Origin: Thoreauomyces humboldtii
Taxonomy: Eukaryota > Chytridiomycota > Chytridiomycetes > Spizellomycetales > Powellomycetaceae
Length of the DNA: 54,032 nt
Direction of reading: 5' to 3'
Assembly: GCA_027596035.1 (NCBI GenBank)
Contig: JADGJA010000057.1
Span: 1-54,032 of the forward strand
Numbering within the stretch: the stretch's first letter is position 1; the number at the start of each line of letters is the position of its first letter. The notes beneath the pieces were generated by a model, which worked only from the letters and a program-made list of their open reading frames with translations, had not been told where the DNA came from and searched no databases. A program made the translations under genes and the position numbers. This document shows, in pieces, positions 5,174-40,156 of the stretch.

Positions 5174-5495
5174 TATTGTAGATTTTTGAGACTTTAGACT
5201 TTCCTCTTTTTGTATTCACCTGCATCCCCTCTTCCTCATACCGCCTTTGCATAATATACCTATACGTATTATTCTCTACCTTAACGGCGCAAATGTATAT
5301 GGACTATTCTCTACTGGGAAGTCCTCGCAAAGGTCGTCAGTTTCGTAGAAAAGGGAAAGATGTGAGGCCTCGGTATGAGCCTGCTGTCCATCGCGACCGC
5401 ATGCAGCCTGGAGCTCCCATTTCAACATTCTCCTACTTCACTATGGGGACCTGTCCGTGAAGTAGCCTCTGGTCACCAATGCTTGGAACAGGACC
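5174..5495. other. Intergenic spacer
   Basis: This 322-bp spacer lies between two plus-strand genes. It begins with an AT-rich stretch (ataatatacctatacg) consistent with a 3' processing region, and presumably ends with the MTC6-like promoter. I see no coding signal. Confidence 0.4.
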
Positions 5496-7387
5496 ATGAT
5501 GCCTTCGCCTTCTTCTATGTGCCGACGGGGCATCCGGTACTTTTCATGGCGATTTGCGCTTTTGGCCCTCTCTTTCTCAGGCGCCTTCGGATCGGAACTC
5601 ACCGAGGAGCAGCTGATCGACGTGGGTATCAGGACACAGCGGGATTTATCGCTAGCGCTTCCCGTAAATAGGGGCGGAGGAGCCGGAATCACTCTCAACA
5701 GCCAAGTTTTTAACAAAACGTACACTCCAGAGGTGCTTGCGAACACCGAGAATTTCGTCGTAACCTATGGGAGGAGGCTCGTCCTTGATGTCTACTGGGA
5801 CAATTTCGCAAAAAACTGGCAGCTCTGTCCCGAAGCATATCCAACCAGTACTGGCATCGCCATATCGTCGGCCAACTACACCAATGGCACCTCGCCGACG
5901 GTCAACTTGGGAGACGTCGTGTGTTCGCAGAGTCCGCTGACCATCAGCGACCTGGGAAACGCACTGCTAACGTGGATGGCCTCGGGGAATGGCGGGCAGA
6001 ATGAGAATACGGTCGTGGTTGTGATCCTGAACCTTCACGATCTACGCCTCGTCGCCTCTCTGAACAACACTACGCCTGTGCAAAACATCAGCACCGCAGT
6101 CAATACTGGTCAGATTTACACCCCGCAAATGCTGCAGAACTACCAAGACTTTAATTCATCTACGAGTGCCTACTCAGCCGTCGTTTCGGGAAATGGCACC
6201 GTGACGCATCCCGCTCCCTGGCCCAAGGGTAGCGATCTGGTCAGTGCCGGCAAACAGATCCTTGTCGGGTTCGGGTCGTCCGACCTCTCGTCAACCTCTG
6301 GCTACGACCCAGTCCATGATCAGGACGTCATCTTTTCGGCTGGAGACTTGGATGGCATTCCTATATTGTCCACCACCGCTGTCCACTCTCCTCTTACCTC
6401 GTGCGCCAATCCAGCGCCTGGGATTGCAATGGTTGGCACTGGCTTCGACGTGTCGGATGCAAATTATACAGCCGTTTCCGTGACCTCCGGGACGACGAAC
6501 GTGTCGTGGAGCTGGCCTTACGTTGTTGAGGCAGCGAGTGCTCCCTTTACCATCGCCGATGTGGCTGCGCTGTCTCATTGCGGGTTTCAGCCCATCTTCA
6601 CCGCGTCCTTTTCGAGCGCTCTCATGGCCGCTTCGATTTGGTCATGGGCTTCTGGAATGCCAAGTACTGCCGTTGACGGCGCAAACTGTGCTGTCATCAA
6701 CAAGAGTTCCGGTCGGTGGTATGTGGCGAGCATGGCTGGCGGCTCTTCCTTAGCCTTGTTTCGGACCGCGTGGCTCATTGTTTCGACGGATAGGTCGGTC
6801 GATCTTTGTAAAGCTTCGTATCCTGTCGCTTGTCAGCTCCTCAGTGGTGATCCCAATCTGGTGGATCCCTACAACGTATGTCTCTCGTTTTGGCTTACAT
6901 CAATGTTGATGAGTATGCTCAGATTTCTATTTTCCAGTGGATGATCGTGCCCTCTCGCTACACATTTCCAGACGCTGCCGAGGCCTGCGTCTCTCCTTAC
7001 GTCTTCTCGGTGCCAAAATCTGCCCAGGAAAATGCCGCTCTTGTCAGTGTTCTTGCGGCTTCATCCTATCCGAACGTGTGGATCAATCTCTATCAAGGCG
7101 GCACCACCTGCTGGGTCGAGGGATATCTTTCCTCGTGTCCCTATGCACCATCGGACCTCTTACCTAGTCTTATCGGTGCAACTCTGAAGCAAGGAATCGT
7201 TATCGTCATCGTGTTTGCACTTTTCGTCTTCTTCAAATGCCGGAGACAGCTGAGAGTCTCGAGACTAAACAAAAGGAAGGCGGAAGTTAGGAGAAAGATC
7301 CGACAGAGAGACTACGTCACGGTGCCGGTGAGTACGAGACTCGGTTCGGTGGATGAAGAACAAGTCAAGGTGACTCGATTTGTCTAA
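5496..7387 (+). CDS. MTC6: MTC6-like ER/secretory membrane protein
   Basis: Two exons, 5496-6875 and 6938-7387, join in phase across a 62-nt intron (GTATG...CAG) to give 609 residues. A signal peptide follows a short Arg-containing N-terminus (FALLALSFSGAFG). The N-terminal region has the family hallmarks: an RDLSLALPVN-type segment soon after the signal, then RRLVLDVYWDNF and NWQLCPEAY. These correspond to the PI-PLC-X-like fold of fungal 'maintenance of telomere capping protein 6'. Several N-x-S/T sites fit a lumenal domain. One transmembrane helix near the C-terminus (IVIVIVFALFVFF) is followed by a basic cytosolic tail. The yeast name reflects a genetic screen; the protein itself looks like a secretory-pathway membrane protein. 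Confidence 0.82.
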
Positions 7388-7717: not shown

Positions 7718-10700
7718 CTAGTGGTGCAGGGCGCTAATGTTCCGAAAAGAGAAGTTTTCAACCTGGCCAATTTGGCTGAGCACGTCATGAGATCCCATCG
7801 GCGTAAGAGATGGTAGCTCCTCGGTGAACTCGTCTTCAAAGAAACTGACGTCGTAGTCGTTGGTCTAGAAAGTTATCGTAATGTCAAGTGGTGTAGTGGG
7901 CTTCTCTGAAGTCAAGCGTGACGGCTCTTACCAGTTGGGGTTTGAACGGCACCTCGACCTCACATCTCAATATCTTGCCCCAGTCTACCCCCTGGAAGAA
8001 GGGATGTCGTCGGATGTCTGCGCCCATCATTCGCCTAGCCGGGGCCCGTTCCAGAAGTCTCGAGAGAAAGCTCCTAGCTCCGACCGACACGTATGCCGGG
8101 AAGACGATCTCCGCGTGGAGAATGTTGTCTTGTATCTCCTCACGATCGTCAGAGTAGAAGGGGTGGAACCCGCACAGCATCTCGAAGGCCACTACTCCGA
8201 GGGCCCAGATGTCGGCGGCTGCCGTGTGTGGATAGCCGAGGAGGACCTCTGGCGCCTGGAAGACGTGCATCACAAGCCAAATTAGATCCTGCACTTCGAC
8301 TGTCTTGCCAGACCAAAAAGGAGCACTTACGAGGTATTCTAGCGTTCCAACCACCGCTATTGTATCCTCAGTCTCACTTTCTGATCCGGAAGCCATCCTT
8401 TCGATCTCCTCGTCTGCTTGTTCATCCTCAGCCTCCTGCTTGCTGAGCCCAAAATCCGTTATCTTGACGTGTCCCTCCTTGCTCAGCAGGATATTTTCCA
8501 GCTTCAAGTCACTAAGGATCGCAATTATGAGCATCGAAATAGATTTGATTTGACCAGAAATTCGCTCTTACCGGTAAATGATGCCCTTGTCATGCAGACA
8601 CTGCAGTCCGAGAAGTAGCTCGGCGCAATAGAACTGAACTCTGGCCTCGGAGAATCTTCCGTAGTGACTGACATGGAAGTATAGCTCGCCTCCATTGATG
8701 TACTCCATTACTAGATACAAACGTTCAGGCGACTGGAACGCGTAATGGAGTCCAACAATAAAGGGGTGATTGATCGATCGCAGGATGCGCGACTCGCTTC
8801 CGGGATCGCTGGAGGGGTCCATTGGGTGAAGCGACGATGTCGGCTTTTTGAGGAGAACTTTGATAGCGAAGACTTCCTGAGTGGAGCGCCGACTACAAAG
8901 GAGGACCTGATCTCGTACGATAAGCATGTCGGCGCGGTGATCAGTGCGGGAACGTCTGGCAGCGTTACCTTCGCAAACTTTCCTCGTCCGATGACTCTAT
9001 GCAATTCGAAATCATCCATCGACATTTTGTCGAGCTCGTGTTGCTTCCCCGCTGGCTCCCGACCTGGAACGGAATCCCGCTCGCCGGTCGTAGATACAGC
9101 CACTGGCAACGCCGGGGCGCTGACGCTGGCTTTTGCCTGTTCCAAAATAGGCGGATCTGCAGGCCGGACCCTCGCTGCTATCTTGATGCAGTTGACCCAA
9201 TCCGTGTACTCCGCCTCCGAGAAGGTAGCGAGAATCAAGCGTCCAGCAGGAGAACTCTGCACCCATCCCTTCTCCGTAACGCTGAATACAAACGGTCGCT
9301 TATGCACGCTCGCTTCCACGGGCTCAACGGTGCATCCTTCCAGACATACGATTCCGGGCGCCCGGCCAGTTGTATCTTCATCGATCGGCGTAGCGACGAT
9401 GACCTCGTCACGAAGGTTGGGACGAAGGACCAGAAACTTGTTGTCCAACTTGGCCCAGTTGGACTCCCAAGATTTTTGCCTACTTTGCGTTTGCAAACCC
9501 AGAATCCACCCTTCCTTGTATAGAAGCGTCGAGCCTACTGCACCGCCTATCCCATATTTGGTAGTCGAACTGGAAGTGGAAAAGGAGCGGCGCACGGAAG
9601 GCTCCCCGGGGTCCGTTCCGTTCCCGGCAGAATGGCTCGCTGCGAGAACGGAGAAAATCTTGTGGAGCTCCGTCTGCTCCCGTTTGGGACCGCCGGAGTT
9701 GAAGGATAACGGAGAAGACGTGGACTTTTCGGACGCATCGACACCAAAGAATCCGGCAAGCTTTGCCATCCGACGGGCGTTCGGGGCCGTTGTGCGGTCC
9801 TCTAAGGACGCAAGGCTATCGAAACTCAAAGTCTCGTGAACCTTCAAACAGCCGTAATGCAAGGTCAGCAAGACAGCGAGTACTTTCAGACTGTTCGCGA
9901 AGCTTACCTGTTTGTGGCGGAGGAGATTTCGAACGGGTCGCTGCTTGAATAGGAAGCACTCGTTGCCCGTCCAAGACAACATGACATCGTAGAGCTTCTC
10001 GTCAGCAGTCATCTCTCGTTCTGTTCCTTCATTAGCTCATTGCAAGCAGGCATGTAGCCATTGTAACGCCTAAATTACCTTTGCCGTCCTGTCGATGAAC
10101 GAAAAGCCCGAATTGCTCCCCGGAGTGATTAATCATCAGCTTGGATAACAAGATGCCTTTGGCATGCGTCGTAGTAGCTTCCATCGACAGCCTTACACCG
10201 CTATATGTAAGGTTGCCGAAATAAATACGGACAAGATAATGACTCCCCTCTGAAGAGTCAGACATCTTCTGACTAGCATTCTATCGGTTCAGGTGAAGAT
10301 GACTTCAATACAAATCACCACTTGTTTCATGTGTTTGCCAGAAAATTCACCTTTTCGGCTTTTCCATAATTGATAGGCTGATGTCGTATGATACCGTGCA
10401 GCTGATCCGCTTGTTTCTTGTTAGCTACACCAAAGAAATCAGCAAGCTTGCCAGCTCGTTTCTCACGTTCCTAGTGGCCATTTGTCAGAAACATGTCCAC
10501 CCTTAAAGTTCAGCGACACTGATGAGCGCCCTCGCCAGTTCCGATAGCTTAACACACCTGTGTAGGACCCGATTCGGCATCTTCTTCCGTGACAGATGCT
10601 GTTTGCTTTGGTGAGGATCTGTCGTAAGCCACGGAGTGCCGGAAAGTATCGTTCGATCCTGTGCTTCGTTTTCCAGCCAAGCGGAGACCCCGCTTTGCGG

Positions 10701-13370
10701 CGGGCAGCTCAACCCCATTGCTTCCGCGGACCGGTGATAGCGGAGCCGAGTTTGCCGCTGACACCTGCGTGGGAAGCACCTCCGAGCTGGATTGCCCGCT
10801 GGATCGTCCGCTACCCGTTTCTCCAGAATTGGTAGACAGGGCCGACATTCGGCGGCTGGCGACCGAGGTTGGTGCCGATAGTCGCTATATCCAAGGTAAG
10901 TACTTTGTTCAACTATATGGCTTGCAGCGGCAGCAAAGTCTTCTCGAACCTTATCGGCGTCTTCCACCTCCTCTTTACTCGAATTGATCTCGGGATCCTT
11001 CTTTTCACGCTTTTTCATCCCCGCCAAACCTAGCAATGCGGCCGCGGACGTCCGCCGCGCCCCGGCAGCGTTAGAACCAGCCAGCGCCGCCGATATGGGG
11101 GATGCGGCATCAATTCCCAGTATGTAAGATAACTTTTGAGACTTGAGAGCCTCGCTGCGTCGCTTGGCATCCTGCGCTACATCAGTCTCTTGCGACTGTA
11201 GCGCAAGCATGTCGGTTGACGAAGGAAGACCTAGGAGCCCGGCCAGCTTTCCGCGTCTCTGATGATGCTGTTGACCAAGCTTAAAATGAGGACCATCTTG
11301 CATCGTACAACGACGGTCAAAGAATCCCTACCGCGTTCCGGAATAGGTATTTGTCGGTACGACTCCACAGAACAAACGGCGTATCCTCAGCCGCCATGAC
11401 TGTAACACTGCTTCCACCTAGAAGCAACGAGTTAATCGCCGCAGGATTGTCCAGAATGCCTGCCGAACGAACCGTCTCTGCATAACCGCCAGTCTTCGCC
11501 TTCGTCCTTGACCTCAATGGTCATGAGCACCTTCACCACCTCTTCCACGGTCGTATGCGACTCCACTAGGACCCAACGGGTCCTTCCAACTCTTTCATCG
11601 ACCACCACTGGAATAGACCATTTGACCTCACTTTTTCGTCGCAATCGCAGCTTGAGGGTGGAGGGAGCAGGAGGCGTTAGATTATCAACCGGCGTATTTG
11701 GATCAATGCGCATTTCTTGTAAGGCTCCTAGCAGCGCCATCCACCAAAAAGTCAGAACCCAGCTGAGTGTTATGGTTCCAAGATACCTTTGGTGCTCACC
11801 GTTGCCTCCAGTATCCATCCAAAACACTCGATAACTCTCTACCAACTCCACAAATCCCATTTTCGTGAGCGCTTCGGCGCGTACCTCGTTCACTGTTGTA
11901 TTTGGCGGAACCGTATACATGCTACAGCTGTCGTCCTCCAGGTACAGAAACACTGGGGTGGTACCCTGCGTTCTCACATGAGCTACCGGCATAAGTGGGA
12001 CGCTGTACAAAGCCGGTAGGGCTGGGGGTAATTGTTGTGGGATTGCTGTCGTATTGGCCGCCGATGTCTCTGGAAACATGCCCCCGGATGGCCATCTTAT
12101 AGCCAGCGGCGAGAATTGGAAGGCCGGAAGATCGTCGGTCGGAGAGGACGGCCCGGTGGCCTCGCCCTGGGCGCTCTGACTGGATCTCAAAACTTCCGAT
12201 CGCATTTTTGGCTTTTCAGATGGGTCGGAAGGCTGGCTTCGTAACGTCGTCAGAGGGGTGATAGGACTAGCCGCTGTTGTGTACAATGTGCTTCCAGCCT
12301 GTGATTCGATAGCGGACATGGCCAGGCTGCTTCGGCCAGATCCTTGAGCGCCGGAGTCTGGTCGCATGGGCAAAGTCTTTTGTCGCACGGCAATAGGACC
12401 CTTTCCCTGGTCCAGATGGCCGCTGCTGCCTCCACTGTATCCCGATATCGTAGCTCGCCCAATTATGGAGGCACCACTAGATGTTGTCTCCCCCATTTTT
12501 CCCTTGAGATACTGAAGTCGTTCCTGCAATGCGGTCGGACTGTCAAGTCCACCCGCCGTTCCAGGCGCTGATAGCGATCCCCGCGAATCCCCGCCCGTGT
12601 GAATGTGCAGCTGGGAGGCGAGCCGAGCCTGCAACTTGGATATTGATGCATTCACGGTTCCATTCGTGAGCAGCGCATTGCCTGGAGTAGCAGGAAGCTC
12701 CTTCTGAGGGTTGTCCACAGCCATCTGGGTTGCGGCCACCTCACCATCCTTGACGATGGTATGCTCAGTGGAAGTCTTGCGCAAGAGCAGCCGTTTGGCG
12801 AAGTGGGCATGAAGATCAAAATGTTCCTGAGTGCCTGGTCGGATCGTCTCGAGGTCCATATCGTTGTCATCGGACAGACGACGTTCTCTTGCGGAGGCAT
12901 CCGACAGCGAATCAGTCGAAGAAGTTGTCAGTGTTGGAGAAGGTTCGAATGCGTCCTTAACGTTCAGCGGAGAGCTTTTGACAAACGTGGGCTCCAGATC
13001 CTCCTCCTCCTGTAAGCCAGAAGCCTCGTTGCTTGCAGCACGCAGTGGAGCTGAAGGAGTCCTGCTCATCTGGCAGGTGTCGAAATCCAAGTGTGCAGTG
13101 AAGCGTGCCAACGAGGACTCTGGCGTTTCCCAGTCGTCTTTGTTATTGAGCAGGAGAGCCCTCACTGCAATTTGAATGGGATTCGACGATCAGGTCTGAC
13201 GTTGGTGGTTGGGGCAAACTCAGCAGACTATTGAATACCAGTAGGGGACGCCAGTCAAAGAGTCATCCGCCAAAAATAGCAGCGCACTCGGCCGTGCGAC
13301 ACTAGAGTAATGGGGCACAAGAAAAGTGGCTTACTTTGACCTGATACCTTTCCTCCGACCGTAAACTCAT
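7718..13370 (-). CDS. RA-RA-PH-AGC kinase fusion (AKT/PKB-like), about 1581 aa
   Basis: I chain these exons: 13370-13348, 13301-13239, 13160-11800, 11727-11513, 11475-11332, 11267-10950, 10884-10558, 10470-10351, 10280-10079, 10020-9908, 9841-8969, 8906-8572, 8511-8331, 8255-7932, 7864-7718. Phase is kept throughout. Domains in order are: a disordered Ser-rich N-terminus; a ubiquitin-like/RA region (about residues 430-600, ending KYLFRNA); a linker with KLAGLLG, KLSYILG and ALLGLAG motifs; KLADFFG; a second RA domain (about 860-955, ending NECFLFKQRP); KLAGFFG; a PH domain (about 1065-1180); and an AGC kinase with its C-tail to 1581. Kinase residues are intact: FAIK, YRDLKLEN, DFG, APE. The C-tail ends near a hydrophobic motif, ENFSF. 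RA domains bind Ras-type GTPases and PH domains bind phosphoinositides, so a membrane-recruited Ras/PI effector kinase is inferred. Uncertain spots are the 37-nt intron at 11512-11476 and the first two exons. Confidence 0.78.
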
Positions 13371-14898: not shown

Positions 14899-17800
14899 AT
14901 GAAATTCGGAAGGACTTTGGCAAACTATCAGGTCCCGGAATGGTCAAAGTGAGTTGACATTGCCAGTACCGGGTGTGAAAATTGCACCCTGTCCTCCCTG
15001 TTCTGACCGGCCCGATCAAGTCAATATCTCGCCTATAAGGCACTTAAGCGACTGATCAAGCAGGCTAGGCGGTCTGCTACGCCGCTTGGCGGAGTCGGAG
15101 AAACAAGCAATGACACGTCCCAGGACGTCCAAAGAGGTTGGCACAGACTCACAAGTCCAAGTCGAGAAAGGGAACGGGCTTGGTGACGCTGAATCGTCTT
15201 TTCAATGACAGCCTTTATCAAGCTTGTTGCGTCTGAGGCGCTGAAAGTCAACGCGTTCTTTATCAATCAGCGGTCCATCACAGAACGCCGGATTCGAAGC
15301 AGTGAGATGCTTCGCCGTTGTGATTGAGTGGGATCCACCCGGCGGTCGTCTAATCTCACATTCCGAAATTAGGCAAGGAACGGCTAGAGAAGCCGGGAGC
15401 ATCAGCGTATGCCGATGAAGAGTTGGTGGAAGCCATTAACGAGATCAGAGTCTACCTGTACCTGGTTTTAAGATACGTGGAAATGAACAAGACCGGTATG
15501 GCGGCGAGTGCGGTACTCCCATGAACGTACCTCATCTGCTGCCAACCAGGCTTCCGAAAGATCTTGAAAAAGTTTGACAAGAAGCTTGCTACCAACCGTA
15601 GCGAGGCTCTGTGGAGTGAAAACCTCAGTTCGCTTGCATTCTGTACGGATACCTCGATGGAGAATATGTTACAGGGGAGTGGGCAGCGAAAGATAGATTC
15701 TCCAGAGAATGTCATCCGAACTCACCCTACGGATCGGGCCATATTAGATAGTAGATGGACTGGATGAGAAGGCCAAAAACCTTCAACTCACAGCTGAAGT
15801 GAACGGACATCCACTGCCATCCCCCGATACCCAGTATCTGTTTCCCGAAGAAGTCAGCAAGGCATTGGATAGCGATGATACCACGCGGCTCTGCATGGTG
15901 TTGGAAAAAATTCGAACTCCTACTCCTGGACAACCTATCACGGAAGATGAGGTACGATCAAAAGCAAAGCATTGTGCGCTTTCGTGGGCTTCGCCTGGTA
16001 TTCATGGCTTTGGGTTATAGGAGCGAGATATGCAGGCTTCTATACTCCTAAAGGCTTGCCAGAAGAAAGCACGTCGTTGCATCGATCTGCTTTTGAAGAC
16101 ACCGGACCTTATCAGCACGCCGCTTCCTGCGGACATAAACCAAAGGACGATTATTCACCGATTGGTGATTCTGGGTGCCGCCATAAGATCGAGGAATGGC
16201 GACGTACGACAGACACCTTCACTGATAGACAAAGATGACCCTACACTCCTTCGCTATCTTCTGGAACGGGTAGCCCCAGACGTGGCGGAAAGGGCTCTTA
16301 AAGTGCGCGACTTTCTCGGACGTACTGCACTTCACTACACCGCGTTGTACGGTTTACCGCGGACTGCCGAATCTCTGATGCACTTCCTGCCGTTCGGAAG
16401 GATCGAAAGAAGCTGGTCTGATGACGATGGACACTCTCCCCTTTTTTACGCAGTTGTACGCGGGTTTGTGGATGTTGTACTGTTACTTCTCAAGACGTGG
16501 AGCAACGTAGATGATCTCGGCGATGGTAGGGCACTTTCAATTACGGCTGCGCGAGAACTGCTTTCTTACCTTTTCGCCAAATTTGCTAGCTAGGATAAAC
16601 GAGTATTATTCGTTTCCAGACCTTCGTCATCTGGTACCAGGCTCGGTCACTCAGCAAGTTAACGCGTCCGGTGATGTCGGGCCCGCCCATCATGCTTTCA
16701 TCACGTCGAGAATGGCAAGCTCTTCCTTGACGGATCTGTTCTCCCCGCCGGGAAGATTGGGCGTGAGCACGCCGTTAGCCCTGGCCTGTACGTATGGTTA
16801 CTCAGCCATTGCCAGGGTCTTGCTTGAGCACGGTGCTGATGCCAACTGGAAAAACGAGGATGAAGAGGTACGTGAGCTGGGCTGTTCACTTGACTGATCG
16901 CAGTTGCTAATACCACCGGTTTCGCAGACTGTGTTACATCTTTGTGCTCGAGGCGGGCATATCGACTGCCTCAAGCTTCTCCTTGGTCAGGTGGATAGCG
17001 TAGCATGGAAACCCTCAGATGTCGACATCACCGATCGTGCCTTCGGACGGACCGCTCTCTTTTTGGCGGGTAGCATCTTTCGCTCGCCGTCCGATTCAGC
17101 TTATGAGAAGACTGACAGATTACGATTATAGCTATGGAGGGACAGATCGAAAGTGTCAGGGCACTCCTTGCGGCCGGGGCAAACCCGCAAATCGTAGACT
17201 CGGGCTCGTTAAACCCGCACGAGCACGCAGGTATGTCGGAAGTCTAGCACGGATGTTCAAGCCTATTTACCTCTTCTCTCAGTATTTCGGGCACACACTG
17301 AAGTGGCAGAACTCTTGCGCCCTCACATTCCTGCGCAAGTGCCTCAATCGAGCAAACTCAGTTCTGTGGCGCAAGCGGTAGTTGTTGAACGAGCTTATGG
17401 TCACAAGTATCTTAAGGGCCAGTCCATGATTCGCGTGTACCTAGGCTCCACGGACCTTCGACGCCAGATGGCCCCGGTCCAGCTCGACGAGAAGCGCATC
17501 CCTTCTCAGATGGCCCCGGGGACTTTTTGCCTGAAAGTCTCGGCACTGGGCGCTACCGGCGAGCCCGTGGTTTTTGACCTGCCACTTCTTGAGACGGTCC
17601 CTGATCCAATTGTTTTCTACGCCGAAACGCCCGAGGCTGTTTCTCTTCAATTTGACATATACCCGGCTTACGGAGACGCGTCAAAGAAGAATCGATTGAT
17701 TGGGAGAGCGAGTGCGTTGCTCTCCACCACGAAGACTTCATTGTGGCAGGAGAAGGGTCCACTTGGGGGATCAATCGAGGTCCCCATCATGGGTGCGCAG

Positions 17801-20239: not shown

Positions 20240-20476
20240 GGCGTGCTTGGGAATCCGAGGAGGTGGCGGTGGAGGATCGATCCTGTATTCCCGGACTACG
20301 AGGTTGGCAGCGAGCGTTAAGGCTTGTCGATGCAACGTTAGCGATGATGATGGGCGCTGATGATGGGCGGTTCCTGGATGATGGGCAGATGAACGCGTGG
20401 CTGTGCACGGTAGTTCTGCTCCTTCCTGGAAAGGGGCGCGCAGCAAGAAAAACTCTGCTCTCACGCTCTCTACAAC

Positions 20477-22549
20477 ATGGCAGAATCACTGAGCGTGGGA
20501 CTGGAGCTCCGCACGGCGTCCGATGTCGATGTTGTCGGTGCCGCTGGGACTTCCGCCGGGTTTTCCTTTGGCTTGTTGGACCTCCTCCGACCCGAAGTCC
20601 AGTCCCATGTACTGCTCCCCGCCAACAAGGTCGCAGCCGCTTTGGAACCAGAGCAGCTCCAGATGACGGAAAACTCCTGGGCAAGCTTTATAGTCGGAGG
20701 CATCGCTGCCGGGGGCGCACTCGAGTCCGAGGACGACCCGACGCGACAAAAGTGCGAAGCCCTCGTCCGCCAGCAGATTCACTGGGCTGCTCACTTGGGC
20801 CTTTCGGCGGTCATGTTCACCTATCCAACCGATGCGTTTGATTGCGTCAACTTTCCTCGCGTGGTCAGCCGGTCCGTTGGATTGTTGAGCTACACGCAGG
20901 CTTGGCTCCGCGTGAGCTTGAAGAATGGAAATGGTGCCGAAGCATGGAGACAGTGGAACCTCGTGCGTTCTCTCGGCGAACACAACCCAAAGCTTTCAGT
21001 GGCCCTGGAGATTGGATCAGAGCTGCCAGAAATTCGCACCCTTCAGCAGTGGTTCGCCGAACCCGTCCGCTGCGTCATTCTGCCCACGTCCTCGTTCATG
21101 GCCAACAGCAAGGGCTACCCGGTCCTTAGCAAGGCTCATCAGGAATTCCTGCGCAAGCTCATGGAGCAGCAGACCGTGCAGTTTGTCGTCAGTGCAGAGG
21201 ATCGAGAGGAGCGTCTACACCCTCAGGGTGGACTGGCTGCCTATGAGCAATATCTCCAGCATCTTAATCGCACTCGTCCTGCCCTCGGCATTGTTGATCA
21301 GTTCGCGCACGGCTACCATGACTACTTGCAGTCCCCCTTGCAGCCTCTTATGGATAACTTGGAGTCGGCCACATACGAGGTTTTTGAGAAGGACCCTATC
21401 AAATACCAGGAGTACGAGCGCGCTATGCACCGCGCCCTGAGCGAGCGCGTATCGGAAGTTGACGCGGCAGCTACTGTCACGGTACTGATGGTCGTCGGCG
21501 CGGGTCGTGGCCCCATCGTTCAATGCGCACTTCAGGCCGCCAAGAGCGCCAACCGTCGCGTGAAGGTTTATGCAGTGGAAAAAAACCCGAATGCCATTGT
21601 GACCTTGCGAAACCGCAAGGCGCAGGAGTGGGGCGACGCTGTTGAGGTTGTGCATTGTGACATGCGCTACTGGGAAGCGCCGGAAAAGTGTGACATTCTT
21701 GTCAGCGAGCTATTGGGCTCCTTCGGCGACAACGAGCTATCCCCGGAATGTCTCGACGGGGCCCAGCGCTTTCTCAAAGATTCCGGCATCTCGATTCCGT
21801 CTGACTACACGGCATACATCTCCCCGATGTCGTCGACCAAGTTGTACAACGAAGTTTCAGCTTATAAGGATTTAGAGCACATGGAAACGCCATACGTTGT
21901 CAAGTTTCGTTCCGTACATGAACTTGGTAAGCGTCGTTGGTGCGAGCTAAACCCTTCGCACTTCCGCTGAACTATATCCTCTCACAGCTGAGCCGAAACC
22001 GGTCTGGACATTCTCGCACCCTGACCGGGTGCAGCAGGCCGAACTCGGATCGCCAAATTTCAACAATCACAATACGCGCACCTCAACGCAACGCTTCCAG
22101 ACTTCTACTGACTCTCTCCTGGTATGGTCAAGCATTTGGAAAGATAATGGCTGCGATCCAACCTCTCTCCCTTACAGCACGGGATCTCTGGCTACTTCGA
22201 GGCGACCTTATATAAAGACGTTATGATCAGCATTCATCCTCAGACTCACTCGCCCGGCATGTTCAGCTGGTTCCCTATTTTCTTCCCACTCCAGGTCAGT
22301 GGTATCTGCGTTGTCGGATTGAGGATTGTCAACTCATGTGATACTTGATTTCAGACGCCAATTTACCTTCCGGCCGGCAGCAAGGTGGACTTAAACTTCT
22401 GGCGTCTTTGTGACGCACGGAAAGTGTGGTATGAATGGAGCGCGACGCCAGTGGCTGAAGATGCGAACGGTGTCACTACGCAGATGCTCGTTGGTGGCGC
22501 GTCAGCTATTCACAACAGGGATGGGAGGAGTTCGTGGATTGGCCTCTAG
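20477..22549 (+). CDS. PRMT5: PRMT5/Skb1-type protein arginine methyltransferase
   Basis: Exons 20477-21926, 21988-22121, 22178-22294 and 22355-22549 join in phase to 631 residues, the usual PRMT5 size. The N-terminal half is a TIM-barrel-like region ([19 protein letters not shown]). The catalytic half has [17 protein letters not shown], with the PRMT5-specific Phe, the SAM-binding motif GAGRGP, and the double-E loop [15 protein letters not shown]. The C-terminal beta barrel shows [15 protein letters not shown] and [12 protein letters not shown]. It should make symmetric dimethylarginine on histones and Sm proteins, in nucleus and cytosol. In animals it works with MEP50, which is not in this window. 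Confidence 0.93.
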
Positions 22550-32286: not shown

Positions 32287-35200
32287 ATGGGTGGGTTCTA
32301 TAGCTGCAACGCTGGCGACGCAGGTGCGCGTCTCTGGTTCTCATGACAAACATCTGGTTGTGCAGGCGACACGGTGGAGGACATGACGACTCTGGCAGAG
32401 TTGTCCGAAGCTGCCATCATGGACAATTTGAAAGCCCGCTACGACTTGAAGCTCATATACGTGAGAGCAAGGAGCTGGAACTCTGGCATACGATGGGAAT
32501 CCGTCTGAATATACATCGTTATGTTTAGACGTATACTGGGTCTATTCTGGTTGCCATGAATCCTTTTGAGAGGATGGAGATATATAACATGGTATCCTTC
32601 CAATGCCGAATGGATGTGGTTCCTGTCAGCGGCTCTTGACCCAAACGGTTTTGCTCAGAACATCCTCAAGAGGTACATGCAAAAACGACACAATGAGAAC
32701 GAACCACATATCTTTGCCATTGCCGAGGCGGCGTACTCGAATGTGCGAAACACCAAAATCAACCAGTCGGTGATCATCAGCGGAGAATCCGGCGCTGGCA
32801 AATCTGAGAGTACCAAAGTTATCCTGCAGTATCTCACAACGGTCACGTCAAAGGAGAGCCAGGAGTCCTGGGTGGAACAGCAGATTCTGGAGGCAAATAC
32901 TGTGCTGGAGAGTTTCGGTACGAGCTGAGCGTGTCGAGACCCATCGATGTAACCCGACATCTTACTGGTTACGTGATTTCTCAGGCAACGCAAAGACCAT
33001 TCGCAACAACAACTCTTCACGTTTCGGAAAGTTCATCCAAGTGAACTTCAACCGGAACTCGCAAATCATCGGAGCGTCCATCATTAACTACTTGCTGGAG
33101 AAGTCCCGTATTGCGAAGCAAGCGCCAGAGGAGCGGAATTACCACATCTTCTACGAGCTGGTTGCGGGCGTCAACGAAGAAGAGCGCGCCAGATACCAGC
33201 TCGAACCTGCAGACAGCTATTTTTACCTGAACCAAACGGGCTGCATCGACATTCCTTACGTGGACGACTCGCAGAACTTTGGCGATCTAAAGCTCGCGCT
33301 TACAGTGCTGAAGATGACGCCTGCGGATCAGGACGGCCTGTTTGCCGCTCTCTCGGCCATTCTGGCCGTGGGAAACGTGGAATTTTCCGAGATTGGGGGC
33401 ACGGAGTCCGTGCAGGTCGCGAATCCGGAGAGCATTGCCAAAGTGGCGGCCCTGCTGGGCATCGATGGGGAGATTCTGAAGAAGGCGTTCTGCTTCAAAA
33501 AGCTTGTCATCCGAGGAGAAACATCGCTTGTGCCGTACAAGCTCCAGCAAGCAAAAGATACCCGAGACTCTTTCGCGAAGGCGGTCTATGATAACATTTT
33601 CCAGCGGCTTGTTGAGTTTATTAACAAGTCGCTAACGCCGAAAGAAAAACCAGTGAACTTTGTGGGTGTGCTGGACATTTTCGGCTTCGAAGGTCAGTTC
33701 ACTTTCTTGACGAAAAGCTTGACGAAATAACTGCTAACCTACTGGTACCTTTAGTTTTCAAGGTACCGGACTACTTGAGAAGACGTCTTTCTTGCGGGGC
33801 CGACTAAACAGTTCTTATCAGTTCAATAGCTTCGAGCAGTTTTGTATTAACTACACGAACGAGAAGCTGCAGTCGTTCTTCAACCAGTTTATTTTCAAGC
33901 TGGAGCAAGAAGAAGTATGCGATGTTGCCGCCTTATCCGGTATTGGACCTTCTTTTGACGGGGTTTCTTAATTCTTCTAGTATGACAAAGAAAACATCAA
34001 GTGGGATAAGATAGAGTTCTCAGACAATGCCCAGTGCCTTGAACTCATCGAGGTATCATGGATTTGATCTGGTATTGAAATCTGTCTTCTGCCCTAACTG
34101 TTCGCAATAGTCCAAACCTGCCGGAATTCTCTCGTTACTCGACGAGGAAACAAAGTTCCCAAAAGGGACCGATGAGTCTTGGCTGAGCAAGCTCGATACC
34201 TCACATATCAAGCATCCATTCTACATCAAAGCGAGGACGCAGAAGGGTGTCTTCGGTGTGCGGCACTATGCAGGAGAGGTAACTGGCGATTTTAGTTGCA
34301 AATGTTTTAGGATGCGATGACTGATCTGTTTCTGCAGGTCACGTATACGGTAGCCTCATTCCTGGACAAAAACCGAGATGCTATTCAGGACGAGCTATAT
34401 GACGTTGTTCGGCAATCCACGGTATGTGTGCGGTGTTAGGACTCTCAACACGGGGCCAAAGCTCATGTATCGTACGTAGGTGGCATATGTGGCCAAGATC
34501 TTTCCCAAAGAAGAGAAAGATGATCAACCAGGGAAAGGGCCGCGAGCTGGAAAGACGACGGCTGGAACGCAGTTTAAGAACCAGCTCGTGTCCCTAGTAA
34601 CGACTTTGGGGGCTACCACTCCTCACTACGTGCGCTGCATCAAACCCAACCAGTCGAAGGAGGCGTTCATGTTCGATGACGAAATGGTCATCTCACAGCT
34701 ACGATACTCGGGAATGCTTGATACCATTCGAATCCGAAAAGCGGGATACTCCATGCGTCTCGCCTTTGACGGATTCGTTCGAGACTTTAAATGCCTCATC
34801 CCTCCAGGGATGAACGGAAAGAAGGAAGACCCGAAGAAAGTTGCGGCTGCGATTGCTGCGGAAGCGGATCTGCCACAAAATGCTTGGCAATGCGGGAAAA
34901 CGAAGTTTTTCTTGAAACAGGATGGCTACGCCCAGCTCCAGGACAAGGTGGCGGCAGTGCTGAGGGCAAAGGTGATTTTGATCCAAAAGACGATGCTGGG
35001 ACATCTTCGTCGCCAGGAATTCCTGCGCAAGCGGAAAGCCGCCCGACTGCTCGAGCGGTACATGCTCGGCTTTCTCTGCAAGCGAAAGTACAAGCGTACG
35101 CTTCGTGCCACTATCAAGATTCAAGCTGTATCTCGCGGATGGTTTGCGCGTGACTACTACAGGCGACTCTTGGCGGACAAGCGCGCCGCCGACCAGAAAC

Positions 35201-38200
35201 TTGCAGAAAAACGGGAGGCGGAGCGAAAGGCATCGAACGCTCCCGTGAATGGAGCATTGGAGTTGACTGCACCAGGGGTGCGCCGGGCGAGCTTTTCAGT
35301 GCAGCCAAAGTCTGCTCCGAGTCGAGAAGACGGTTTCAAGGTTTGTGACCGTTCTGACTTTGCCTTGGTTGAGGTCGGAGCTTCATCATTCTTTCGTTCA
35401 CCAGCTACCCCAAGCCCCCATTTTACCACCGGCTCCTAAGCTTGTGATCAAGAAACCGGTATGTTAAGTGAAACGGATGACACACAGCCGACTACCCTAT
35501 TGACATTCCATTTGTACAGTCGGATCTTCCTCCAGCTCCTCTACTTCCTTTGGGACAAGCCCCAATCCTATCTCCTGCTCCTAAACTATCTGCAATCCCG
35601 GCATCGCCTATTGTTGCAGAGACGCCCACAAAGAAGAAGCAAAGCGGGGAGATTGATAACCTTTTCGCGTTTCTCGGTGACTTTGATGCCAGCAAGCGAT
35701 CCGGCGTGTTCCGAGGTGCCGACATCCTCGCCGAAATGGCAGCTGCCATTACCGCCGACATCGATTCCATGTTCGACGAGCCTATCAGCAATGCTAAAGC
35801 GGGCCTCGCCAAGTCGGCGCTTCCTGCTGTTGCTGCTGTCAAAGGCTCTGTACATTCACTGGCTAAAGACAGTCAACAGTCAATCGCCGGCGATGAACAA
35901 AGCTCACGTGGGCAGTCCCAGATGGAATTGCAGGACGAAAGTGTCAGAGAGTCTGCCGAAAGCGTGGCTAGCGTTGCTCGTCGCGAGTCGGTGGGTAAGG
36001 TCATGCAGCATAATCCGATCATGAAAGAGCTTGACGTTAAGGTATGAGTTTTGCCACGGAGACATCTGCTCCTTGACATGAAAACTCATGTACTCTTCGC
36101 GCAGCGCTCAAACGAGAGCATTGACAAGATCGACCTCAACGCCAAAGAGCTGAGCATGGAATCTTACGCTGAGAAGCACTTCGAGGTGAGCGGATGTCCA
36201 GAAGTTCCCAAGGTATATTTTTTTGCTTATCTCCCTCCAGCAACATTACAAGGCGTCCGGGTTCGCGACCATCGCGAAAAAGCGTCAGTTGATGGATCTT
36301 TCTGAGTTGCTCACTTATAGCAAGGTAGTGCTGCTGCGATACATTCTGACATACAGATGCTGATACGCTTCGAAACAGAATCCTTTGCAAATGAGCATCA
36401 CCAAGATTCCCAATAAATCGGATGCGCTCGACCAAATGGCGGTTGACTGCTTCAAGAGTATGGTGCAACCAGCGTTCGGAAGCGAACATTAGCTAGGAAA
36501 CTGCTAATCGTTTGTCTATCAGGCTTGCAGAAGGCAACGGAACTAGGCGGCAAGCGGCCAGAAGAGTTGGCCCAGACGTTCCTCGCGCAAGGAATCACCC
36601 ATCCAGAGCTTCGGGATGAGCTCTACGTGCAGCTGATCAAGCAGGTCACGGTGCCCGCAGGCAAGGAAAACATTCCCAAAGGCTGGGATCAGATTCAACT
36701 CGGGGCCTGGCACGTCCTCGTCCTGGCGTGCGCGACCTTTCCGCCCTCCAAGATCTTCTGCAAGTTCCTCCTCGCTTTCCTGCAGCGAACGGAACTCCAA
36801 CTAGCGACAGCCGAAAAGAACCCTGTTCGCAAGCTCGCCATCGCCGCTGAACGCGCGGTCAGACGTCTCATTATGAACGGGCCGCGAAAGGCCGCTCCTT
36901 CCCTCTTCGAAATCACTACCCTGAAAGGAAACGGCGTGCTTCCTTGTCGGTTCGGTCTGCTGGACGGTCGCGAGCTGGACATCGCTGTGGGTCTTACGAC
37001 GACTGCTGGAGACATCGTCAAGGATATGGCCCGCAAAGTGGAGCTGAAGGATCAAACCGGATGGTCGCTTTACGAGGTCTCTTCCCATGGGGAAAAGGCC
37101 GCCAAAGCAACAGACTATATCGCCGACTTCATCGCCAGTTGGGAGAAGGAGACTCTCAAAAAGAAGGGAGAGACCATCAAGAAGAAGAAGGGGGAGACGA
37201 GCATCGCAGGTAAGCGAGGAGGCGTGATGTCCATTGTATCTTGGCCCGTGGAAAGTATTCATATCCTCGCTCTTCTCAGCTGCGGTGACTCTTGACGCGA
37301 GTTTGGTCCTGAAGAAGCGTGTGTTCCGAGACAACAAGGATGAACCGTTAGAGCCCGTAGAATACGGACTATTGTACGCTCAAGCAGTGGACAGCATCAG
37401 TAAGGACGTTTACCCTATATCCGAGCGTGTTGCCATGGAACTGGCCGCGCTGCGTGCGCAGGTGTTGTTAGGAGACTGTGACCCGCGTGCAGCTGAATCG
37501 AGACTGTGAGTTCTGTTTTTCCCGCTCGCCATGACAGTCTAATTAACTACCAACGTTTCTTTAGTATAAACGAGCTTCAGCTTTGGGTCGCCCCCCGCTT
37601 GATTCCCAAACAGCCGCGAGAAGCGTGGGTGCAGGGCATCGTCAAGTACTATCAAAAACTGCAAGGCACCAGCACAGCAGTCGCCAAAAGCCTATACCTT
37701 GAAAATGTGCGGTCGTTCAAGCACTACGGCGCGTCCTTGTTTGCCGTCACGCACAAGGGATCATGGTCTTTTGGCGACGACGTTTTGCTGGCGGTTTCAC
37801 AAGCAGGCATCGACTTCATGCATCCTCGCACCTGCGACAATCTCATGACCTTCCCGTACCGCGATGTCAAGAGCTACGAACAAGAGAACGGTCTCTTCAC
37901 ATTCGCCGCCGTACCAGCTTCGGACGATTCTGGTGTAGAATCCACTGAAGTCTTCCAATTCTCGACCGAGCAAGCGGAGGAGATCGTCATTCTCATCCGA
38001 GAGTACTGCCCAACCACGGAGTACATGCGCAAGGCCAAGGAGCCTGTGTTCGAGGTGGACGTTGGCACGCTCATGCGCGACGTCGAGAAGGCCCGCGCTG
38101 CTCTCCTGGACCACGGGATGATGCGGAAACCAGGACCTGATGGCGTCGGAAAGAAGGCAAAGGGAGGAATTCGGAGGCTTTTCACCGCAGCCTCCCGCGC

Positions 38201-40156
38201 TACCGTAAAGTCTTCAGCAGGAATGGAAGGGATGCTTGATCGCCCCAACCTGGAGCGCCGAGGCAGCACGAGTAGCAAGGCAGAGGAGCCCGGCCGTTCG
38301 GATGAAGGAATCTCGCGGCAATCTTCCGGCGGTGGCGGGCTCACGTTGCGTCGCTCGCCGTCAACGGCGGGACCAGCGTCGCCAGGCGTCCCGGACGAAC
38401 GAAACGATGAGGATTACTGCGTGGCTGACTGGAGTTTCTCGACGAGGCAGTTGGCGACATCGTTGCTCGCGATGTCTGATACCAGTTTGGAGACATGGGC
38501 TGCAGAGACATCTGCTATCCTTCACAGCTATCTAGGGCCTGCCGGTGGACCACCACCGGACGTCGCGACGTTCAATCTGGGTGCGCTGCAAGGCGTGTTT
38601 GAGAAATGCTTAGGATCTCCATATCTTGCGAACGAGCTGTACCTTCAGCTGGTCAAGCAGACCACCAACCATCCTGACGCGGATAGCCTACCAGCGATCA
38701 ACAGCTGGAAGCTACTAGTCATCGCTTGCGGCGTCCTTGCACCGAGCGGCTGGGTCTTGGAGTACACCAAAGCGCATCTTCGACGATGCAGCGTGGTTGA
38801 CCTTCGAGCAAAGAAGCCAAGGACAGAAGAGGCTCAACATTCGCGTCACTGTCTGAGGACACTTCGACGTACCATCGGCGCAGGCGTGCGAAAGCTTCCT
38901 CCGTCCGCAGACGAGATCCTTCAAGCCACCAAGCTCACACCGATGCGCATCCGCTTCCACACCATGGACGGAAAGTCCTACACTGTCCCCATCGAGCCAT
39001 CCGACAGCTCTGACGTCGTCTTCCACGCCGTGCTTGAAAAGATGAAGGTCCAAGCTCTGGCAGGCTTTACCATCTACGAGCAATCGGGATCGTCGGAGCG
39101 AGCCCTTGCCAAAGAAGAGAAGATCACCGACTGTCTCTACCGATCCGAGAAGAAACGAGCTCAGCAACCCACAACACCAAGGGTCCAGTTCCTTCTCAAA
39201 CGCAAGCTTTTCCTGCGACCCATGGAGAACTGTCGGACCGAGGCAGAGGACGGTCTAACCCGTGCACAAGCCCTCCACGATGTCGGATCTGGAGCGTATC
39301 CAGCGTCCGAGGATGATGCCATCCGATTGACGGCATTGTGGGCTCAGGCGCAGTACGGTGATTTCAGCTACGACGCTCCAGTGCAGTACGCTCAGCTCTG
39401 TGGGACCTTCGTACCGGCTCAGTTCAGGGTTGGCGGCATCGACAAGAAGGTCGGAGAGAAGCACATGGAGTTCCTTGGTACAAGTCCGGCCCAGGCGAAC
39501 GCTGAGATCAGTCAGCTGATACGGTCTTGGCCGCTCTACGGAAGCACGATGTTCAATGTTGAGGTACAAACTTCGTTGAAAGTAATTCTGGGGTTTGAGC
39601 TCGTCTCAATAATGACCTTGATTTGCTCCATAGCAAAGTACCAATAAAAACATTCCGAGCGGTTGCTGGCTAGCCGTCGCTGCCGAATCGATCCACATCC
39701 TGGCACGGAATTCGAAGGTGAGATGAAACAAACAGAGACATAACTATACGCTGTATTTGGCCTTACTAATTGACGTTTCGAACCTCCCTACAGAAACCCC
39801 TCTTCAGTCACTCCTACGAGGATGTGGTCAGCTTCAGCCCGTCGCTCAACAGTCTGCTCCTCGTGATCGGGAACAATTCTTCAGGTCCGTCCAGAGCGTC
39901 CTCATCCACCCCCTTCTTGCTAAAGAACTGAACTTTGTTTCTACCTTTCCCGCATACAGGACAGAAGTACATCTTCAACACCGTCCAAGCAACGCAGGTT
40001 GCTGACCTGATGAGGGAGTACATCAGTTTCATCACCCCCAGCGGTCGTCCGGCCATGGGAACATCTACCGCCTCCAGAAGCGACCTTCGAGGACCTCACC
40101 CTGCTGCCTCACGGAGCGATCTGAGAGGTTCGCACAACGCTTTGAACCGATCGTGA
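32287..40156 (+). CDS. Unconventional myosin with two MyTH4-FERM tails
   Basis: Twenty-two exons add up in phase to 2172 residues: 32287-32290, 32366-32460, 32529-32591, 32659-32917, 32985-33692, 33755-33762, 33822-33914, 33981-34052, 34111-34278, 34338-34421, 34480-35340, 35405-35458, 35520-36041, 36105-36185, 36241-36324, 36379-36457, 36523-37209, 37280-37505, 37565-39563, 39634-39717, 39794-39884, 39960-40156. The motor (1 to about 675) has the P-loop [10 protein letters not shown], switch [11 protein letters not shown], switch II DIFGFE and the actin-binding HYVRCIKPN. About three IQ motifs follow (such as [16 protein letters not shown]), then a Pro-rich linker. MyTH4-FERM 1 spans about 1010-1530 and MyTH4-FERM 2 about 1665-2130; both MyTH4s have the [18 protein letters not shown] hallmark. 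The layout matches class VII/XV/XXII-type motors that bind membranes and microtubules, but there is no SH3 domain. The tail ends in two SRSDLRG repeats. Confidence 0.9.
33755..33762 (+). other. 8-nt micro-exon in the myosin motor
   Basis: The sequence ttttcaag is flanked by an acceptor (cctttag) and a donor (gtaccg). It is the only way I found to join DIFGFE (exon ending 33692) to [11 protein letters not shown] (exon starting 33822): the last G plus these 8 nt encode V-F-K. The result, DIFGFEVFKFNSFEQF, has the spacing seen in other myosins (E-x-F-x-x-N-S-F-E-Q). Confidence 0.75.
40062..40135 (+). repeat. SRSDLRG tail repeat of the myosin
   Basis: Two copies of S-R-S-D-L-R-G are encoded near 40074-40096 (agaagcgaccttcgagga) and near 40107-40130 (cggagcgatctgagaggt), at the extreme C-terminus after the second FERM domain. 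A degenerate third follows (ALNRS at the end). Codons differ between the copies. Confidence 0.6.

Follow-up and report, generated by a model that had tools for sequence, protein, structure and literature searches.

An RA-PH-AGC kinase gene in Thoreauomyces humboldtii: member of a conserved, apparently uncharacterised family of zoosporic fungi and, in part, aphelids

The window analysed here is a 54,032-nucleotide stretch of the chytrid Thoreauomyces humboldtii (contig JADGJA010000057.1). Its minus strand carries, from position 13069 to 7718, a single gene whose product of 1520 residues combines Ras-association-type (RA) domains, a PH domain and an AGC-type protein kinase domain. That the frames of this strand form one gene and one RA-PH-AGC kinase chain is confirmed. 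Comparison with database relatives indicates that this conserved, apparently uncharacterised kinase family of zoosporic fungi, and partly of aphelids, is real. An earlier sequence-only reading of this DNA is partly supported: it was right on the chain and probably wrong in letting the protein read phosphoinositides.

The gene was proposed earlier to arise from minus-strand frames chained through phase-consistent GT-AG introns, and this is what is found. Between the thirteen exons lie 12 phase-consistent GT-AG introns, each 52-87 nt long, and the coding length is 4563 bases including the stop codon, with no internal stop. Seven of the 12 introns contain a stop when read through, and seven have a length that three does not divide. 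Two introns have GTTCG as the donor, not GTAAG or GTGAG. The gene and its parts are arranged as follows.

7718..13069, minus strand: whole gene, a spliced open frame with GT-AG introns, colinear with five homologues
13069-11800, 11727-11473, 11417-11332, 11279-10950, 10884-10558, minus strand: exons 1-5
10470-10351, 10280-10079, 10020-9908, 9841-8969, 8906-8572, minus strand: exons 6-10
8511-8331, 8255-7932, 7864-7718, minus strand: exons 11-13
11966..13069, minus strand: N-terminal poorly conserved region, residues 1-368, 12-34% identical to the five homologues
11630..11965, minus strand: RA1, residues 369-456, ubiquitin-like
11271..11629, minus strand: RA2, residues 457-540
9932..10253, minus strand: RA3, residues 806-893
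9167..9529, minus strand: PH domain, residues 1006-1126, Pfam PH 4.1e-8, above the curated cut-off
7995..9010, minus strand: AGC-type kinase domain, residues 1179-1451, Pfam Pkinase 5.9e-63
7718..7994, minus strand: AGC C-tail and stop codon, Pfam Pkinase_C 5.6e-5, with the turn motif Thr1493 and the hydrophobic motif VENFSF, Ser1511

The model was aligned with five database proteins (P0001-P0005) in a six-protein alignment, A1, in which the segment from RA1 to the C-tail aligns well and the N-terminal part poorly; the Pfam search of the spliced model lists no match in residues 1-368. Overall identity to the model is 56% for Powellomyces hirtus (P0001), 53% for Geranomyces variabilis (P0002), 46% for Spizellomyces punctatus (P0003), 38% for Phlyctochytrium arcticum (P0004) and 35% for P0005. 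This identity is distributed across all domains, and for the Powellomyces protein it reaches 82% in the kinase and 77-78% in RA1 and RA3. Near-identical kinase matches across the 20.7-Mb genome come from this locus only, and the gene therefore seems to be single-copy.

Frameshifts had been suspected at 11472-11418 and 10949-10885 (around 11480 and 10890) and were rejected, as GT-AG introns resolve both. Enumeration of GT-AG pairs of fitting length at the two joins gave many options, and the choice was guided by the homologue alignment. One intron of 55 nt, which carries TTAAC close to a terminal CTTCTAG, and one of 65 nt, which ends in GGATATAG, were chosen because the restored sequence aligns with the homologues, so that no frameshift is needed. 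Regarding the start, the ATG at 13069 gives an N-terminus beginning MS, as in all six proteins of A1. An earlier placement of the gene up to 13370 holds for 13069-7718; an additional exon that starts with the ATG at 13370 can be joined in frame in any of six ways, each through one GT-AG intron. These introns measure 154-223 nt and so exceed the other 12 in length, and the joins would add 26-49 residues. The resulting totals of 1546-1569 do not include the length of about 1581 residues given before. No support for the 13370 start was found, and 13069 was kept as the simpler one.

On the spliced model, the profile searches for RA, PH and kinase domains all pass the curated cut-off, with RA3 doing so for RA (RA 8.9e-12; RA_2 5e-12 in two stretches); the PH domain and the kinase thus stand in the same chain, as anticipated. 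In a single-exon Pfam scan all RA matches remain below the cut-off: RA1 reaches 19.7 bits against 21 (RA), RA2 20.7 bits against 27 (RA_2) and the first RA3 exon 12.4 against 21. When the genome was searched for Pfam RA one exon at a time, five matches resulted, this gene not among them; its RA domains are split by introns, RA3 passing the cut-off only when spliced.

The distribution of the family was followed in 32 rows, namely the window protein and 31 relatives, five of them from a first homologue search with words from RA to PH and 26 from two further searches. Domain presence was scored with family hidden Markov models (HMMs) at a domain E < 0.05; the RA2 and RA3 models were built on residues 457-540 and 806-893, and on the window protein the models place RA1 at 369-456, RA2 at 457-537, RA3 at 808-892 and PH at 1006-1126. 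Since the RA1 and RA2 models include the window protein and 13 homologues, the window match (RA1 2e-41) is by construction. RA3 is found in 31 of the 32 rows and PH likewise in 31, while RA1, RA2 and RA3 occur together in 22, eight of which are independent of the building of the RA1 and RA2 models. The full RA1-RA2-RA3-PH-kinase order, which the sequence-only reading had suggested seeking in chytrid and other fungal proteins, is present in 21 rows including the window; P0035 has three RA domains without a PH match. Among the shorter arrangements, the three Blastocladiomycota rows having an RA domain show RA3-PH-kinase only, P0009, P0010 and P0013 are without RA1 and RA2 and are perhaps short gene models, and P0123 is without RA3 and has a partial PH. 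In two Amoeboaphelidium rows and in P0122, RA2 is weak and no convincing RA1 is seen; P0122, with its transcriptome-style label, is taken to be the aphelid Paraphelidium, and it adjoins Amoeboaphelidium in the tree (95).

At least eleven named genera have precomputed Pfam RA, PH and kinase matches in one chain. With orders and phyla assigned from the genus names, the relatives among the matches listed belong to Spizellomycetales, Rhizophlyctis, Borealophlyctis, Chytriomyces, other chytrids and Quaeritorhiza, to Blastocladiomycota (Allomyces, Blastocladiella, Sorochytrium), to Anaeromyces (Neocallimastigomycota) and to the aphelid Amoeboaphelidium. No RA-PH-AGC protein of Dikarya or Mucoromycota is among the matches listed (120 of 234 and 120 of 476), which is weak evidence of absence, as the first homologue search was insensitive and gave only five relatives. 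Database names often call the relatives "RAC kinase": Spizellomyces punctatus has an "AGC protein kinase", and "RAC-alpha/gamma kinase" is used in Geranomyces, Rhizophlyctis, Allomyces and others. The statement that such a chain is not known as a characterised protein stands in so far as no paper describing the family was found among the open-access papers searched; the conserved family itself is already in the databases.

A quick tree of 63 kinase domains was computed with support from the Shimodaira-Hasegawa-like approximate likelihood ratio test (SH-aLRT) and no bootstraps, using hand-picked references (11 Akt, 10 PKC, five RSK/MSK, three protist Akt-like and three own-genome kinases), without SGK, S6K, Sch9 or Ypk references and with rows P0035, P0041, P0062, P0080 and P0112 left out. 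The 31 family rows form one kinase clade (SH-aLRT 100), with the window protein sister to Powellomyces (89). Within the family, aphelids, Blastocladiomycota, and chytrids with Neocallimastigomycota are separate groups, as expected under vertical descent. Holozoan Akt forms a separate clade (96), paired with PKC (90).

The kinase domain retains its catalytic residues, Lys1208, Asp1305 and Asp1323 in the window protein. The beta3 Lys and the DFG Asp are present in 32/32 rows, and the HRD Asp in 30/32, with His in the other two; residue counts, here and below, are over those of the 32 rows that have a residue at the site. In the turn motif, 22/27 rows have Thr or Ser, and the position of Akt Thr308, the PDK1 site, is Ala1356 in the window protein. 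The best PDB sequence matches are Akt2 (2.4e-76) and Akt1, followed by PKC eta and theta. The earlier designation as an AKT-type kinase is therefore borne out for the fold and the best match only. Compared exon by exon with this genome, Capsaspora Akt scores 249 bits in one exon at C15 and 152, 121 and 66 bits in the exons at C87, the listed scores of exons in the present gene being 92 and 69 bits; because other kinases of the genome score higher, "Akt-like" is a fold-level label only. Judged by their reading frames, C87 is presumably of Sch9/Ypk type, C15 of S6K/MSK type and C445 a Pkc1-like kinase. Two departures within the family may be recorded separately: P0032 and P0034 (Chytriomyces hyalinus), whose kinase branch is very long (1.5), have Gly-Pro in place of Gly-Thr in the T-loop ahead of the APE region; P0027 (Anaeromyces) and P0029, again with a very long kinase branch (1.45), have Ser-Asn where Gly-Thr otherwise precedes the APE motif.

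Three ubiquitin-like RA-type domains are present in the chain, so that the earlier mention of RA-like domains is upheld in kind and not in number, two having been counted. The ubiquitin-like fold is seen in homologue models of all three. In a Spizellomyces RA1-RA2 fragment (predicted local distance difference test, pLDDT, 81) two tandem ubiquitin-like folds are evident, RA1 showing the order beta-beta-alpha-beta-beta-alpha-beta; RA3 is seen, with PH and kinase elements, in the model of an 828-residue Geranomyces michiganensis relative, whose domains lie above the mean pLDDT. By VIA structure comparison, RA1 matches FERM F1 lobes, SUMO and ISG15, while for RA2 the Z scores of FERM lobes (myosin-X 11.0, PTPN21 10.4) and RA domains (RADIL 10.7, afadin-HRas 10.3, RGL2-KRas 10.2, Grb10 10.2, Rasip1-Rap1B 10.1) are tied. 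A Foldseek search with the RA1-RA2 model is headed by ISG15, USP7 and talin, as expected for tandem ubiquitin-like folds, and does not single out RA. Unlike the fold comparison, the RA3 family profile points to RA, because Grb14 RA-PH (8.8e-5) and Grb7 (2.2e-4) come first among PDB entries, then RGL, RGL1 and afadin, with RIAM matched weakly (0.035). The RA2 profile finds no significant solved structure in the PDB (best E 0.79; RalGDS 1.2).

The contacts made by known RA domains offer a further comparison. R20, K32 and K52 of RalGDS touch Ras (PMC3607560), and Grb14 relies on a single alpha1 lysine, Lys140 (PMC3742580). With RalGDS numbering transferred by our own reading of HMMER alignments, RA3 is basic at the R20 position in 30/30 and at the K52 position in 30/31 rows, both sites being among the four most basic of its 88 columns. 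RA2 is basic at the K32 position in 20/25, and RA1 at the K52 (alpha1) position in 17/25. From the conserved contacts in RA3 and RA2, it is plausible that the RA-type domains bind Ras-type GTPases. Three KLAG-type motifs also flank RA2 and RA3.

11229..11249, minus strand: KLAG-type motif 1, KLAGLLG, residues 548-554, after RA2, slightly variable in A1
10429..10449, minus strand: KLAG-type motif 2, KLADFFG, residues 764-770, before RA3, invariant in 6/6 proteins of A1
9743..9763, minus strand: KLAG-type motif 3, KLAGFFG, residues 928-934, after RA3, invariant in 6/6 proteins of A1

The PH domain, whose strands and C-terminal helix are seen in the model of P0010, lies about 110 residues beyond RA3 (893 to 1006). 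In Akt, K14, R25 and R86 coordinate PIP3 (PMC8379990). The position of Akt Arg25 is Asn1029 in the window protein and basic in 0/30 family rows, and that of R23 is basic in 7/30; of the Akt lipid-site positions, the counts cover R25, R23 and the presumed K8. Because the Arg25 position is non-basic in 30/30 rows, PIP3 reading of the Akt kind is unlikely for this PH domain. The suggestion that the kinase would read Ras-type GTPases and phosphoinositides at once is accordingly not supported in its lipid half, as far as the Akt form is concerned, and remains plausible in its Ras half through the RA3 and RA2 contacts.

The reading preferred here, with somewhat better than even confidence, is that a GTPase recruits this AGC kinase of zoosporic fungi and aphelids independently of PIP3; the domain order and its conservation are observed, and binding, release and substrates are predicted. 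A GTP-loaded Ras- or Rap-type GTPase at the membrane would bind RA3, perhaps aided by RA2, and the interface would be formed by a beta-strand and alpha1, as it is in Grb14 and RalGDS. Such binding would bring the kinase to the membrane and lift an autoinhibition by the PH domain. For this domain a structural or autoinhibitory role, or a weak contact with the membrane, is likelier than Akt-like reading of PIP3. The hydrophobic and turn motifs would probably be phosphorylated by TORC2. The window protein would do without canonical T-loop activation by PDK1, given Ala1356, and the acidic stretch before this residue may replace the phosphate. As a speculation, the RA tandem may also provide avidity or accommodate a second GTPase. 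In the genome, 51 Ras-type GTPase matches are found exon by exon, together with a SIN1 PH domain (3.7e-15), a PI3K C2 domain at one locus and a PI3K accessory domain at two loci; PI3K_rbd gives no match, and as its control is also silent, its absence is not shown. These matches fit a cell that has TORC2 and lacks class I PI3K, but do not prove it.

Several observations weigh against this reading. The third contact is missing from RA3, where the K32 position is basic in 3/30 only; RA2 is basic at the R20 position in 4/25 and at the K52 position in 3/25, and RA1 at the R20 position in 0/25 and at the K32 position in 1/25. RA folds are, moreover, frequently non-binding to GTPases, and structure comparison alone cannot separate RA domains from FERM lobes. 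The models were built on homologues and not on the window protein, and that of the RA3-PH-kinase homologue has a mean pLDDT of 66.8. A conserved PH lysine, which we take to be the equivalent of Akt K8, gives a basic residue in 27/29 rows, so that some lipid binding is possible. In the kinase, the Thr308 (PDK1) position is Ser or Thr in 17/32 rows. The hydrophobic-motif Ser is found in 14/20 rows and no residue stands there in 12/32; TORC2 control is for this reason not family-wide.

In an alternative reading, the RA-type domains have lost GTPase binding and serve as ubiquitin-like modules with a structural role, comparable to FERM F1 lobes or the module of PHLPP; they would hold or dimerise the kinase while other inputs drive it. 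This alternative is possible, at a probability well below even. It agrees with the resemblance of RA1 to FERM F1 and SUMO folds and of RA2 to FERM lobes as well as to RA, with the lack of the R20 and K32 contacts in RA1 and with the weak PDB matches of the RA2 profile; vertebrate PHLPP, moreover, retained its RA domain after Ras binding was lost (PMC12002173). It does not account, however, for the basic R20 and K52 positions that RA3 keeps in practically every row, for the K32 position of RA2, or for a RA3 profile that finds Grb14, Grb7 and RGL first.

It is less probable, and on the whole unlikely, that the protein is the fungal Akt, a true orthologue that gained RA modules and that PIP3 recruits in the usual manner, with PDK1 and TORC2 as its activators. 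Akt2 is the top PDB sequence match of the kinase, and in a Foldseek search with the RA3-PH-kinase model Akt PH+kinase entries lead the list, although the whole does not superpose (root-mean-square deviation ~16 A); such a search with the long model barely probes RA3 and PH, since kinase matches fill the list. In the approximately unbiased (AU) test, a joint clade of Akt and the family is not rejected (p-AU 0.387). Against orthology stand the pairing of Akt with PKC in the tree, the higher exon-wise score of Capsaspora Akt at C15, the non-basic Arg25 position, the missing PDK1 Thr of the window protein and the PI3K Ras-binding domain not found in the genome, with the silent control noted above. 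That the RA portion and the PH-kinase portion have separate transcripts, as two adjacent genes or a pseudogene, is very improbable: the two GTTCG donors and a gene structure known in the window from DNA alone leave it a little room, but the phase-consistent introns, the identity spread across all domains and the single chain in records of eleven named genera speak against it.

Returning to the GTPase-recruited kinase, a broader proposal is put forward tentatively and is, as it stands, rather doubtful: Fungi and aphelids may have inherited from a flagellated ancestor a Ras-effector AGC kinase whose several RA domains combine GTPases or count them and whose PH domain gave up PIP3, a one-step version of the route through Ras, SIN1-TORC2, PI3K and Akt in animals and amoebae. 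If this were true, its loss in non-flagellated fungi would tie a Ras-effector AGC kinase to zoospore life. Should the RA modules bind GTPases, a single chain would link Ras with a catalytic domain of Akt-like kind and dispense with the lipid step by which Akt is defined, and a testable picture of Ras-to-AGC signalling near the root of Fungi would result; the "RAC kinase" labels in chytrid genomes would then imply the wrong input.

Other genes of the window were noted in passing. On the plus strand, 5466-6941 encodes a protein of MTC6 type with a partial TIM barrel, in convergent orientation to the kinase gene, and 20414-21967 is a PRMT5 arginine methyltransferase gene. At 15748-16238 (plus strand), overlapping short frames resemble reverse-transcriptase remnants; the first 90 residues, the sole part searched, give no Pfam match. 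Exons at 32774-39644 (plus strand) match myosin head (2.6e-78, 1.6e-34), IQ, MyTH4 (8.2e-22), FERM_M, RA_2 and PTB-type domains. They apparently belong to a MyTH4-FERM myosin, here in a fungus of chytrid type. Elsewhere in the genome, at G000:C68:6987-7610 (minus strand), RA is followed directly by PH in one 823-residue open frame, a separate RA-PH tandem of the Grb7/RIAM kind.

Among known systems, the closest is the zoosporic-fungal RA-PH-AGC family itself, of which the window gene is a member, with the same domain order and a kinase inside the family clade. With Akt/PKB it shares a PH domain followed by an AGC kinase and a C-tail, including the hydrophobic-motif Ser1511 and the turn motif Thr1493; in contrast, Akt is without RA domains, and the window protein lacks the basic Arg25 position and Thr308 and falls in a separate clade. 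Grb7/10/14 and RIAM/lamellipodin likewise place RA before PH, and the RA3 profile matches Grb14, Grb7 and, weakly, RIAM, but these adaptors are without a kinase, and the spacing of about 110 residues here does not show a compact RA-PH unit. ROCK, MRCK and Cla4 combine small-GTPase binding and PH in one kinase chain, and differ in binding Rho-family GTPases through CRIB or coiled-coil segments and not RA domains. A PH domain is present in SIN1 of TORC2 as well.

Precedents are also found in other lineages. Some unicellular holozoan RA-PH-LRR-PP2C proteins, relatives of PHLPP, bear a C-terminal AGC kinase (PMC12002173, 2025), so that RA, PH and AGC in one opisthokont chain have a precedent; these proteins have LRR and PP2C domains, whereas none is found in the window protein (Pfam, 1520-residue model, E up to 1). 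Dictyostelium NdrC is an AGC kinase that binds Ras GTPases through a domain of its own, although it is of the LATS type, in the NDR/LATS subgroup, and its published abstract names no PH domain (PMC4120859). In the same organism, Rap1 and RasC act on TORC2, Rap1 via RIP3/SIN1, and hence on PKB-type phosphorylation (PMC4865869); a Ras-binding domain thereby governs phosphorylation of a PKB-type kinase, but it resides in a separate TORC2 subunit and not in the kinase chain. As to the fungal AGC repertoire, a Tor-pathway survey reports Sch9 as present and Ypk2 as not found in Batrachochytrium and Spizellomyces (PMC2997006). What is new here is apparently an uncharacterised family, its sequences already in the databases, that represents a variant on known RA/PH/AGC combinations.

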